A stretch of DNA of 53,130 nt from Pseudobdellovibrio sp. (GTDB taxonomy: Bacteria; Bdellovibrionota; Bdellovibrionia; Bdellovibrionales; Bdellovibrionaceae): NCBI GenBank assembly GCA_023701385.1, contig JAMPXC010000021.1, positions 1 through 53,130 on the forward strand, given 5' to 3'. Below the pieces are notes generated by a model. The model saw only the letters and a list, made by a program, of their open reading frames with translations, was not told the DNA's origin and made no database searches. Shown here piece after piece: positions 4,237 to 47,405 of the stretch. Positions within the stretch are counted from its first letter, which is position 1; every line of letters begins with the position of its first letter. Position numbers and translations under genes: made by a program.

Positions 4237-4356
4237 TCCATTACTGATTATCATTCTCATCAAAATTAAAATTTGATACGAAACATTAGACATCGACAGA
4301 CCCAAAGTCCTCGATGTCTAATAGTTTTAGGGGTCTTAAAGAGGGGAAAATTTAAG

Positions 4357-24676: not shown

Positions 24677-24712
24677 AAAAAAGGCTTGGTTTATTACCAA
24701 GCCTTTTTAGTT
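24677..24712. terminator. Bidirectional terminator, ctpA / tig
   Basis: Perfect 12-bp stem AAAAAGGCTTGG / CCAAGCCTTTTT with a 7-nt loop between convergent genes. The A- and T-tracts allow use from both strands. Confidence 0.92.
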
Positions 24713-43274: not shown

Positions 43275-44417
43275 ATGAAACTTATTCTATTTGCTTCACT
43301 ATTTTCTTTTTCGCTTTCAAGCTTTGCTCAACAAGTTGTTGATAAAGAAAACCTGGCGATGTGGATTCCGCCGAACTGGAATACCTATCAAGCTATCGGT
43401 TACAACGCAGATACGTTTAAAGTGCCTGAAGGGCTTAAAAAATCGGTCGACTTCTGGATTCAGATTTATACGAAGTATACAACCCAACAAGGGGTATTTC
43501 ACGTAGCTGGCGATACCGATCGAATTCTTGGGGATTTTGACCTTACCCAAGTTTATGCAAACCCTAAGTGGTCGCCAGTGCGTCGTCAGCTTGAGGCCGA
43601 GATTTTAATTCGACGCCAGAAAAAATTATTAGCGGCCCGCCACAAAATTGATGTGAAAAAGATCCGCCTACAAATGGGTTTAAAAGACCGCATGGAGCAA
43701 GCCATTAAAGTTTCAGGTTATTATTTACCACAAATGGAAAGAATTTTTGAACAAGAGAAGATTCCCAAAGAATTAACACGTGTGGTGTTTGTTGAAAGTT
43801 CATTTAATATTTTTGCCGAATCGCGTGTTGGAGCCAGTGGTCTTTGGCAGATCATGCCGCGGGTATCGAAAAAATTTAAATATATTTCAGACGCACAAGA
43901 TTTAAGAAATCATCCGATCTATGCAACGAAGCTTGCGGCTAAAATCTTTAAAGAGAATTACCAGATTTTAAAATCATGGCCTTTGGCAGTTACAGGCTAT
44001 AACCACGGGGTGGGTAGCATGAGTAAAATCGTTAAAAAGTACAAATCAAACGACATCGCTTACTTAGTTGATAACGTAGGGGCGAGTAAAAGTTTTGGTT
44101 TTGCTTCAAGAAATTTCTACGCGACGTATTTAGCGGCGCTATATGTTGAATCACATGCGAATTTATTTTTTCCGGAGCCAGTTTTTAAATACCAAGAGTT
44201 ACAGATTCGTGCGGTAAAAGTTGTAAAACCAATGCCGTATAAAGAATTACTGACTTATTTTGGTAACGATAAACAAAAGCTTCGTCTTTATAATCCACAT
44301 ATTAAAACAAAATACTTAAAAGCCGGAAAAGCCCTGCCTAAAGGGGTGATTGCGAATCTTCCGAAAGAAGATAAAACGCAAATCGCCGGTGTGATAGATC
44401 AAGAAACTGAATTATAA
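43275..44417 (+). CDS. Lytic transglycosylase, SLT/MltD type
   Basis: The 380-residue product has a signal peptide (MKLILFASLFSFSLSSFAQ) and a helical N-terminal region. A GH23 SLT domain (~150-295) follows, with the catalytic Glu in FVESSFNIFAESRVGASGLW and the GYNHG motif. The C-terminal ~60 residues resemble the linker of MltD (LRLYNPHIKTKYLKAGKALP), but no clear LysM repeat follows. It cuts the glycan strand of peptidoglycan with 1,6-anhydro product formation, in the periplasm. No good Shine-Dalgarno precedes the ATG. A hairpin terminator follows. Confidence 0.88.
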   Translation: MKLILFASLFSFSLSSFAQQVVDKENLAMWIPPNWNTYQAIGYNADTFKVPEGLKKSVDFWIQIYTKYTTQQGVFHVAGDTDRILGDFDLTQVYANPKWSPVRRQLEAEILIRRQKKLLAARHKIDVKKIRLQMGLKDRMEQAIKVSGYYLPQMERIFEQEKIPKELTRVVFVESSFNIFAESRVGASGLWQIMPRVSKKFKYISDAQDLRNHPIYATKLAAKIFKENYQILKSWPLAVTGYNHGVGSMSKIVKKYKSNDIAYLVDNVGASKSFGFASRNFYATYLAALYVESHANLFFPEPVFKYQELQIRAVKVVKPMPYKELLTYFGNDKQKLRLYNPHIKTKYLKAGKALPKGVIANLPKEDKTQIAGVIDQETEL

Positions 44418-44424
44418 AATAAAA

Positions 44425-44452
44425 AAAGCCTGAAGGAGTAACTACAGGCTTT
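44425..44452 (-). terminator. Terminator between convergent genes
   Basis: AAAGCCTG / CAGGCTTT stem with a 12-nt loop. The best T-tract (TTTTTTTATTTT) is on the minus strand, serving the small secreted protein; it may also stop the transglycosylase transcript. Confidence 0.8.
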
Positions 44453-44457
44453 AAAAA

Positions 44458-44865
44458 CTATTTGATTTCAACGCAAGTCATTTGAAGTGCGTCTTTGCTA
44501 AAGTTAGTCTCTGGAAATTGACCAGCAAAAATTCCAAGACCTTCAATGGGTAATACGCTCATTACTAATTGTTCATTGATATCTGTGTGATCAAGTTGGT
44601 AAGCGTCTACCTGAGGGTTTAAGTTAACGTTGGCGTTAACCGCTGAACGCTTTTCTAAGTTACCTTCTGCACCCATAGTCCATAAAGACACTTCGGCGAT
44701 TGTACCTGCAACGTCGCGCACGCGAATTTCAAAAAGCTCGTCGATGTGAGCTGGTGAGTAGCAATTAAACTCACGAGCTTTTTCATCGCCGCCAGATGAA
44801 ATAGGGCCGGCAAAAGCCATTGAAGATAATAGGGTCATTAATGTAACGATCATAGTTAGTTTCAT
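44458..44865 (-). CDS. Small secreted protein divergent from TIGR02147 regulator
   Basis: The ATG at 44865 has AAGGAG 8 bp upstream and a signal peptide (MKLTMIVTLMTLLSSMAFA). The 135-residue product's mature part is mostly beta, with one cysteine near the start (FNCYSPAH) and one near the C-terminus (QMTCVEIK). These probably pair. The motif VRDVAGTIAEVSLWTMGAE is visible. I do not recognise a family. It shares a 117-bp promoter region with the divergent regulator, containing a large inverted repeat, so it is a likely target of that regulator. Confidence 0.72.
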   Translation of the reverse strand: MKLTMIVTLMTLLSSMAFAGPISSGGDEKAREFNCYSPAHIDELFEIRVRDVAGTIAEVSLWTMGAEGNLEKRSAVNANVNLNPQVDAYQLDHTDINEQLVMSVLPIEGLGIFAGQFPETNFSKDALQMTCVEIK

Positions 44866-44923
44866 AATTGGTTCTCCTTGTAGCCGATCTTTTAGCAAAA
44901 AAGCAATTTGACTTCAGTATCAA

Positions 44924-44958
44924 TTAAATAATCAAAATAATTGAATTTGATTATTTAA
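44924..44958. promoter_or_regulatory. Perfect 13-bp inverted repeat, candidate operator
   Basis: TTAAATAATCAAA and TTTGATTATTTAA flank a 9-bp spacer, midway between two divergent start codons (44865 and 44983). The size and centre spacing (22 bp) suit a dimeric regulator. Confidence 0.6.
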
Positions 44959-44982
44959 AATAAACGATATAGAACACCGCTT

Positions 44983-45783
44983 ATGAGCGATTTATTTAAG
45001 TTTGATGATTACAAAGAGTATCTAAAGCAATTAGTTAGAACTAACGAAGAAGTTCGTGGTTACCAAGCCCGCCTAGCGCGTGAAGCCAGTTGCCAGCCAT
45101 CGTATCTTTCACAGGTGTTAACAGCCAATGCTGATTTAACCACAGACCACGCTTTAAATATTTCAACGTTTCTGGGTCTTGATGATCAAGAGAAAGAATA
45201 TTTAGTGACTTTGATTCTACACGCAAAGGCAGCGTCTGTGAAAAATAAACGCTACTTTGAAAAAAAGTTAAGCCAGCTTAGAAAACAAAGAGCCAATTTA
45301 ACTAAAAGACTTCACACCGACGAAGAATACGCCAAAGACGTCGAGCTCGTTTACCATAGCAACTGGGTCTATGCGGCCGTTCACGTTTCAACAAGTATCG
45401 AAGAGCAAACAGCGATGACCATAGCTGAAAAATTACGATTAACTGTCGGCGAAGTTTCAAGTGTTTTAAAAACCTTGGCTAGTTACGGCCTGGTCAAAAG
45501 CGATGGCGATAAATGGGTATATGTCACGGGTTCGGCGCACTTACCGGATGAATCGTACATGACGATGGTAAATCATTCGAACTGGCGTTTAAAATCAGTG
45601 AGTAATATTCCTCATCGTAATGAAGGTGATCTTAGGTACACGTCGGTATTTACCATGTCTCAAGATGATGCCGATAAGTTAAAAGAAGAAATGCTTAAAA
45701 TGATCAGACAATGGCGCACAAAGATCGCCCCTTCAGAACCTGAAGTGACTATGGCGATCTTGTGTGATTTTTTTGAGGTCTAA
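44983..45783 (+). CDS. TIGR02147-family transcriptional regulator (DUF4423)
   Basis: The 266-residue protein opens with FDDYKEYLKQLV and a helix-turn-helix (YQARLAREASCQPSYLSQV, ~27-45). A charged coiled region (~85-115) and the C-terminal DUF4423-like winged domain (~120-265; AEKLRLTVGEVSSVLKTLA, LKEEMLKMIRQWRTKIA) follow. This family is greatly expanded in Bdellovibrio and Fibrobacter and is rare elsewhere, which supports the lineage call. Its targets are unknown. The promoter region holds a perfect inverted repeat. Its 3' end overlaps the convergent secreted-protein gene by 4 bp. Confidence 0.88.
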   Translation: MSDLFKFDDYKEYLKQLVRTNEEVRGYQARLAREASCQPSYLSQVLTANADLTTDHALNISTFLGLDDQEKEYLVTLILHAKAASVKNKRYFEKKLSQLRKQRANLTKRLHTDEEYAKDVELVYHSNWVYAAVHVSTSIEEQTAMTIAEKLRLTVGEVSSVLKTLASYGLVKSDGDKWVYVTGSAHLPDESYMTMVNHSNWRLKSVSNIPHRNEGDLRYTSVFTMSQDDADKLKEEMLKMIRQWRTKIAPSEPEVTMAILCDFFEV

Positions 45784-47405
45784 AGTTTGATTGGCTTAAA
45801 ATTACCTTTAGAAATTTGCGAACGTAATAAGTACGGAACTGCGTAGTAGCGGTTGTACTCATTAGGTACGATGCGCGAATGCTCTAAATCTTCAATTGCT
45901 AATTTAATTTTACCAGGAATATCATCAACTGAAGTGACTGTATTAAAAATCGCTACACCTTTTTCCCAAAGGTTACCGATTGTTAATTTATCTTTAGCTG
46001 GATCATGAAACACCTGCATCATGGCGTTAAATTCATCCAGGCTACCTAATGAAGCGTTTAATTTCGGAAATAAGAAACCAAAAATCATTCTGTTAAATTC
46101 ATACTTTTCATTTAACGTGTAAGTGACAGCTTCAGTTTGGCCGTTTGATTTAGGCATTGGCGTATTCGCCTTAGGGTTCTTAGTGATTTCTAAGATGTAA
46201 CCTTCTTTAGTGCCCGTGTTGTTTTTAACAAAATAAAGATCTTTTTTGTAAATCGTGAAAACCATTTGGCGCATGTTTGATACCCGTAACGCCATTTCTT
46301 TATCCCAGATAGCACCATCTTCTTCTTTTTCAAAGCGGTGATATTCATCTAGCGCACGCGGAACCACACCGTTTAACATGCCGTGAACAACCTTAGTCAT
46401 TAAACCTTGAGCCCCACCAAGTGAAACGACGTAGTGAGCATTAAGGTTTACAGGACGGCCTAAGTCTTTTAAAACTTGCGGCATATTTACCATATCTTGC
46501 GGTAAGTACTGCGCGATACTTTCGGCCGCATCATAAGCATCTTGTCCGGCCGTGTAGTTTTTTAAATAAGTTTCATAACCACTTTTTACGTAACCAATTT
46601 TTTGGGCGCGTGTGAAAATATCTTTTAATACGAAATCAACATAAGTTGGTTCGTTTAAGATTTTTCTAGAAATCGTGTCATGAATGATTTTATTTTGGTG
46701 ATATAAATCAGCTAATTGATCACCGTTTAACTTTGCATTCGGGCCCTGATCAGAAAACGCAATTTCATAATCAATTTGATCTACTGGTAATAGTGAACGC
46801 ACAGCCACCATCGCTTTTAAAACTGAACGCGCCATTTTAAAATATTTTTCAACTGAAGCTTGATCAACGAAAGGACGATCTGGATGATGCCAGAAGTGCG
46901 CATGACCTAATTCAGCAATTGTTCCTGCGTGAGCAAATGAATCTTCTAAAGTATGAAGACCAGCAGAGATCTTCATTAAGTTACCTTCCATTAAACCTTC
47001 AGTGAAAAGCTCAGTGGCAAATTCATGGTCGGCTTCAGTTTCAGTGTAAGAATTTAAAGTTAAACCAGAAGATGGGTCATTCTTAAGTAATCCCGCAAGC
47101 TTACCCATAAGTTCATCGGGTCTAAGTTTATTAGCTAACGGAGAACCCGGAAAGTGTAAGAGGCGACGTTTTTTAATACCTGTTAAAGGTAAAACGATCA
47201 TACTTAATGGATCTGAAATATAGGCCTCATCCATCCACTGTGCGCCTAAAGCTAATTTGACGGCGACCGGATGTTTAATCCCGGCAAAACGGGCCATGGA
47301 GTAAGTCCCGTAAAAGTGAGTATCCACATCATAAGCTGATGCAGAAAATGAAAATAACAGGATCGCCGGCATGATTAAGTTTCGGATAAGTTTTTTCATA
47401 CCCAT
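45780..47405 (-). CDS. Secreted zinc-phospholipase/P1-nuclease-like protein
   Basis: The 541-residue protein has a signal peptide (ATG at 47405 or 47399; neither has a strong Shine-Dalgarno). The mature N-terminus YDVDTHFYGTYSMARFAG, the cluster ADHEFATELFTEG and the motif HTLEDSFAHAG followed by GHAHFWHHPD place His, Asp and Glu as in zinc-dependent phospholipase C / S1-P1 nuclease folds. These enzymes coordinate three zinc ions and cut phospholipids or nucleic acids. The C-terminal half (~330-541) has no recognised domain. The function is inferred from the metal-ligand pattern. A predator could use it on prey membranes or nucleic acids. Confidence 0.6.
   Translation of the reverse strand: MGMKKLIRNLIMPAILLFSFSASAYDVDTHFYGTYSMARFAGIKHPVAVKLALGAQWMDEAYISDPLSMIVLPLTGIKKRRLLHFPGSPLANKLRPDELMGKLAGLLKNDPSSGLTLNSYTETEADHEFATELFTEGLMEGNLMKISAGLHTLEDSFAHAGTIAELGHAHFWHHPDRPFVDQASVEKYFKMARSVLKAMVAVRSLLPVDQIDYEIAFSDQGPNAKLNGDQLADLYHQNKIIHDTISRKILNEPTYVDFVLKDIFTRAQKIGYVKSGYETYLKNYTAGQDAYDAAESIAQYLPQDMVNMPQVLKDLGRPVNLNAHYVVSLGGAQGLMTKVVHGMLNGVVPRALDEYHRFEKEEDGAIWDKEMALRVSNMRQMVFTIYKKDLYFVKNNTGTKEGYILEITKNPKANTPMPKSNGQTEAVTYTLNEKYEFNRMIFGFLFPKLNASLGSLDEFNAMMQVFHDPAKDKLTIGNLWEKGVAIFNTVTSVDDIPGKIKLAIEDLEHSRIVPNEYNRYYAVPYLLRSQISKGNFKPIKL

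Follow-up and report, generated by a model that had tools for sequence, protein, structure and literature searches.

The window analyzed here, a 53,130-nucleotide stretch of Pseudobdellovibrio sp. DNA, contains a perfect 13-nt inverted repeat at positions 44924 to 44958 (TTAAATAATCAAA-N9-TTTGATTATTTAA) that lies between a gene for a TIGR02147/DUF4423 regulator and a divergent gene for an exported protein, and we rate as about even the chance that this repeat is an operator of the adjoining regulator. Sequence comparison bore out the perfect repeat and 9-nt spacer given in a preliminary description of this DNA: the left arm (TTAAATAATCAAA, 44924 to 44936), which is unique in the genome, is exactly complementary to the right arm (TTTGATTATTTAA, 44946 to 44958), and the two flank the spacer ATAATTGAA (44937 to 44945). 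The 117-nt intergenic region common to both genes (44866 to 44982; 26% GC) contains the repeat and presumably the promoters of both the regulator and the exported-protein gene, and a Shine-Dalgarno-like AAGGAG can be read ahead of the exported-protein ATG at 44865. The repeat does not sit midway between the two start codons, as had been described; the gap to the regulator ATG (44983) is 24 nt and that to the ATG of the exported protein is 58 nt, and the center of the repeat is offset 17 nt from the intergenic midpoint on the regulator side, at -42 relative to the regulator start. The arm centers are 22 bp apart, or about two helical turns.

The regulator (266 aa, 44983 to 45783, plus strand) belongs to the TIGR02147/DUF4423 family as first described, scoring over both curated cut-offs (58.1 bits against 50 for TIGR02147, and 53.6 bits against 30 for DUF4423, the latter over residues 122 to 266 in the C-terminal half). 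The genome encodes 14 TIGR02147 genes (16 profile matches, with two genes split in two each), and the closest relatives of this one among 143 genomes of the class have only 35 to 37% identity, the best being 37%; among 43 family proteins placed in a tree, it forms its own branch inside a clade of 19. A search of named genomes with the single protein returned no matches, and a search with a three-member alignment recovered nine loci with relatives of the regulator, mostly in Bdellovibrionales and related metagenome bins; one of the nine is titled Streptomyces griseus, a doubtful title given to a sequence that sits beside Bdellovibrio-type sequences. Convergent with the regulator is an exported-looking protein (541 aa, 45780 to 47405, minus strand) whose N-terminal part has a short match to DUF6765. 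Elsewhere in the window, a perfect inverted repeat with 12-nt arms and 14 nt between them (ATTAGACATCGA, 4285 to 4322) lies just upstream of an open reading frame (ORF) that resembles the replicative helicase DnaB.

Structural models suggest that both halves of the regulator could contact DNA. AlphaFold2 models were built from ten sequences, and residues 1 to 106 were also modeled separately because a structure search with the whole model gave mostly winged-helix matches; mean pLDDT was 74.5 for the whole regulator and 95.3 for residues 1 to 106 alone. The N-terminal model is all-helical, with predicted helix-turn-helix (HTH) helices at residues 27 to 34 and 39 to 47, and its best Foldseek matches were HigA, SinR, C.BclI, and P22 c2, none with an E value below 0.1 (the top match, HigA 6chv, had a TMq of 0.51, an rmsd of 2.2, and a weak E value of 0.12). 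A profile search with the regulator recovered Cro and HigA chains at E values of 0.003 to 0.5, while matches to HTH_31 (16.9 bits, cut-off 27) and to the HigA NCBIfam model (19.7, cut-off 47.7) fell short, as did the weak HTH_3 matches in 4 of 10 family members, which were under the Pfam cut-offs. Residues ~118 to 185 of the model resemble ArsR/MarR winged helices (CzrA, Z of 11.1 over 81 residues at 3.4 Å; AdcR, Z of 9.9 over 61 residues at 1.0 Å), and the winged-helix matches among those listed had Z scores of 9 to 11 over 56 to 97 residues in a model that is partly of low pLDDT; residues 189 to 224 are poorly modeled. Based on these predicted folds, the regulator probably carries two DNA-binding folds, an XRE/HigA-like HTH and a winged helix.

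Two known kinds of repressor offer close comparisons for the regulator. The XRE/HigA-type autorepressors (HigA, C.BclI/C.AhdI, SinR, and P22 c2) have an HTH similar to the predicted N-terminal one, and they likewise pair a small regulator with a palindromic site near its own start. Unlike them, the window regulator has HTH_3 and HTH_31 sequence matches below the Pfam cut-offs, appears to add a winged-helix half, lies beside a repeat whose arm centers are 22 bp apart, and is partnered with an exported protein instead of a toxin or a restriction enzyme. The ArsR/MarR winged-helix repressors (CzrA, AdcR, and ZitR) resemble in fold the model of residues ~118 to 185, but in sequence this part is DUF4423, and whole-protein Foldseek E values to ArsR/MarR proteins are only ~0.01 to 0.09.

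The divergent gene encodes a 135-aa protein (44458 to 44865, minus strand) that opens with a signal-peptide-like stretch followed by AGPISSGGD, consistent with the secreted protein originally proposed. No Pfam or NCBIfam family matches it, and searches of 98 relatives and of the class (142 other genomes) gave no homologue; nor does it match any of the other 122 divergent partners of family members at an E value of ≤1. No orthologous regulator/exported-protein pair was found in 143 genomes of the class; with an exported protein that has no homologue and a regulator whose best match is at 37% identity, there is therefore no orthologous promoter in which the site could be compared.

We asked instead what surrounds other members of the family, using 138 genes, taken from the window's genome and its relatives, for which 150 nt or more of upstream sequence was available. 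This set consists of the best matches to the window regulator plus its own-genome paralogues and is thus not a random sample; one family ORF lacking a start codon (L056), proteins shorter than 200 aa, and genes whose start lay within 150 nt of the edge of a locus were left out. A divergent upstream neighbor within 400 nt is present for 123 of 133 TIGR02147/DUF4423 regulators, compared to 256 of 866 control genes, and 97 of these 123 partners are signal-peptide-like, compared to 88 of 256 in the controls (by a home-made hydrophobicity rule applied alike to family and controls). The pairing of regulator and exported protein in the window is therefore the rule for this family. The partners themselves are diverse, with 66 clusters among the 113 of 123 whose length allowed comparison past residue 65.

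A glycine triplet recurs in these partners. GGG occurs in 40 of the 97 exported family partners and in 6 of 332 signal-peptide-like control proteins, when counted within ~50 residues of where the hydrophobic stretch of the signal peptide begins, and 22 of the 66 partner clusters (partners of L001 to L148) have it within the first 100 residues. The 135-aa protein of the window has SSGG, which is related to the GGG of other exported partners. Such a triplet, directly following the signal peptide, may be a common mark for processing, anchoring, or export, and the pairing with an exported protein, together with this triplet, may be worth more than the repeat itself.

Inverted repeats are moderately more common upstream of family genes than upstream of other genes. 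An initial comparison with 188 controls gave a z score of ~6 (4.9 on repetition), an excess that was inflated because few of those controls were AT rich, and we replaced it with one using 601 upstream regions from 60 stretches; four family members occurred in those stretches, and genes less than 600 nt away from them were omitted. In this larger comparison the GC-matched mean repeat score was 7.42 in the family and 6.98 (standard deviation, 0.22) in the controls (z = 2.0), and 30 family regions scored at least 9 where 17.7 were expected, with no excess at scores of at least 12 (8 observed, 7.6 expected); GC-matched counts are restricted to genes for which 10 or more matched controls existed (109, 107, and then 122 of the 138). 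Judged against shuffles of each region itself, 25 of 138 family regions reached a P value of ≤0.05, compared to 20 of 268 divergent controls (odds ratio, 2.7) and 52 of all 601. With the window site omitted, 24 of 137 family regions remain at that P value, 36 of 137 score at least 9 (48 of 601 controls), and 6 of 137 score at least 13 (0 of 268 divergent and 8 of all 601 controls). Among regions below 33% GC, scores of at least 9 were found in 33 of 99 family members and 22 of 139 controls (P = 0.002). Loops of 6 to 14 nt, the class to which the window site belongs, showed no excess alone (z = 1.1), and roughly four in five family members, including most paralogues in the same genome, have no significant upstream repeat. 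Where repeats scoring at least 9 do occur, 32 of 36 in the family are centered between -60 and -10, compared to 30 of 48 in the controls, and the window repeat, at -42, falls within this favored range. Very long repeats were seen in some control regions, including one of 19 nt upstream of a nucleotidyltransferase-like ORF (L183, near 3815) and a perfect palindrome of 46 nt preceding an ATPase-like ORF (L206), with both gene kinds assigned by eye.

Several clades of the family have a palindrome that keeps its aligned position while the sequence of its arms varies. Examples are TTATTTAAGTA-t-TACTTAAATAA (L048), TAATTTTAGTA-a-TACTAAAATTA (L082), GCTAAGTA-t-TACTTAGC (L073), and TTTAGTA-t-TACTAAA (L061). 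Among pairs in which both members have a repeat, an aligned repeat center is common to 22 of 77 homologous pairs (42 to 80% identity) and 85 of 519 unrelated pairs (P = 0.016), which is only suggestive because the pairs are not independent. The palindrome AGTAWTACT is present within the 60 nt preceding the start codon in 6 of 138 family genes (L048, L049, L061, L073, L082, and L134) and 0 of 601 controls, although it was first noticed in the family, and a genome scan located a further AGTA-W-TACT site beside a family gene (L240).

Other promoter motifs were also considered. TTWAGTAWTACTWAA was rejected as a family operator: it has 10 sites in 99 genomes, 5 of them beside TIGR02147 genes, but 4 of these 5 come from the set that suggested the motif, leaving a fair score of 1 in 6, and it is overall no commoner than its reversed control and is absent from the window's genome. 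GCCGATAA, which we take to resemble a sigma-28 -10 box, lies no more than 60 nt ahead of the start in 6 of 138 family genes (carriers include L045, L049, L095, and L130) and 1 of 268 divergent controls; no exact copy is present at the 44924 to 44958 locus. Counts of TTATAAA and TATAAT are confounded by AT content. In two related genomes (L238 and L239), the palindrome TTAAGTATTACTTAA lies at position 1501 between a regulator gene judged LysR-like by eye and a gene for a small exported-looking protein.

The expectation that the same repeat would recur elsewhere in the genome was not borne out: it is a single copy in the 3.18-Mb assembly even when as many as 3 mismatches are tolerated across the 31-nt core, its arms are not shared by the 13 other TIGR02147 genes, and only 4 of these 13 have any perfect repeat of at least 9 nt within 150 nt upstream. 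Allowing up to 3 mismatches, the site pattern matched in 21 of 99 genomes, its own included, and a reversed control pattern also matched some; the 19 loci around such matches in relatives (L150 to L168) contain no TIGR02147 ORF. Three of the matches looked good by eye (in G040, G017, and G091), but they fall at a boundary of genes that look, by eye, to be of the conjugation type (L162 and L163) or at the end of an ABC-ATPase-like ORF (L165).

Could the repeat be an AT-rich coincidence, or a core promoter or UP element with accidental symmetry, picked by eye from 53 kb? When the 117-nt intergenic region was shuffled 20,000 times with dinucleotides preserved, a perfect arm of at least 13 nt arose 10 times, so that a chance origin is unlikely locally, though this P value of ~5e-4 ignores the size of the window from which the repeat was selected. 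Across the window, perfect pairs with arms of 13 nt or longer and loops of at most 24 nt number three (the repeat at 44924 to 44958 among them, and one of the other two, at 24678, terminator-like). The low GC content of the region favors such a reading, and AT-rich controls equal the family for long repeats (below 33% GC, 13 of 139 compared to 12 of 99 at scores of at least 11; P = 0.52). Yet five shuffles of the whole window yielded no perfect pair of 13 nt and none of 12 or more, and the position of the repeat agrees with the place that the family prefers. We regard coincidence as unlikely, though it deserves to be taken seriously.

It also seems improbable that the repeat is the site of some other dimeric regulator of the divergent pair, with the TIGR02147 protein acting elsewhere or through another site. 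The classic XRE half-site spacing is narrower than the distance between these arm centers, which would fit a different protein, and control genes outside the family also have long upstream repeats, as the 8 of 601 at scores of at least 13 attest. A regulator of multiple genes would, however, leave several sites, and this one is unique at up to 3 mismatches; moreover, the adjoining gene itself encodes a DNA-binding protein of a family whose promoters are enriched for repeats. An RNA hairpin, acting as leader or terminator, is very improbable: although the stem folds at -8.9 (plus strand) and -10.4 (minus strand) kcal/mol, better than nearly all shuffles, it has only one G-C pair, no rho-independent terminator (G+C-rich stem plus T-run) was called at the repeat in a scan of 44300 to 45200, both genes read outward so that no transcript needs ending there, and the regulator ATG is just 24 nt away.

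The repeat is thus most likely the regulator's own site, since family members are nearly always arranged head to head with an exported protein and inverted repeats are more common upstream of them. What stands of the operator proposal in the preliminary description is the family assignment, the divergent exported neighbor, the family-wide pairing, a moderate excess of repeats, and some recurring clade palindromes; the central placement and further copies fell away. We infer the binding, the oligomeric state, the sign of regulation, and the signal in the following model. A symmetric regulator, either a dimer or a tetramer, would bind both arms through its N-terminal XRE-like HTH, possibly assisted by the winged helix in the C-terminal half, and the 22-bp arm spacing would be compatible with either a dimer that spans two turns or a pair of dimers. 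Bound in this way, it would cover positions 25 to 59 nt ahead of the regulator ATG and so repress itself; the site would overlap both promoters, and the regulator would also control the divergent exported-protein gene, which would most likely be repressed until a signal arrives. The regulator may accordingly govern both itself and its exported neighbor.

The literature searched, which gave partial coverage, contained no defined DNA site for TIGR02147/DUF4423 proteins, in agreement with the preliminary description, and the titles and abstract openings of articles on Bdellovibrio operators and divergent palindromic regulators held nothing bearing on the TIGR02147 family. One article mentions DUF4423, in a table only: Bd3700, a DUF4423 domain-containing protein, is listed with a value of 2.67 where the text deals with predator proteins that are upregulated while the predator grows inside its prey (PMC12546842).

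These observations could have implications for a family that is present in many copies per genome in relatives of predatory bacteria and for which the 35-bp site described here is a first concrete candidate. We tentatively suggest, as a possibility that we hold with considerable doubt, that the Bdellovibrionales maintain a large and fast-changing set of head-to-head modules, each consisting of a two-headed (XRE plus winged-helix) TIGR02147 regulator, a private palindromic operator, and an exported protein, the latter being of many unrelated kinds but often with a Gly-triplet. Every such regulator would then turn on or off a surface or secreted product of its own, and the operator would change in step with it. 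A position rule (a repeat center 10 to 60 nt upstream) and a partner rule (a divergent exported protein) make the family testable. If the family rule holds, each copy would name its own target, and those targets would make up a little-studied secretome.
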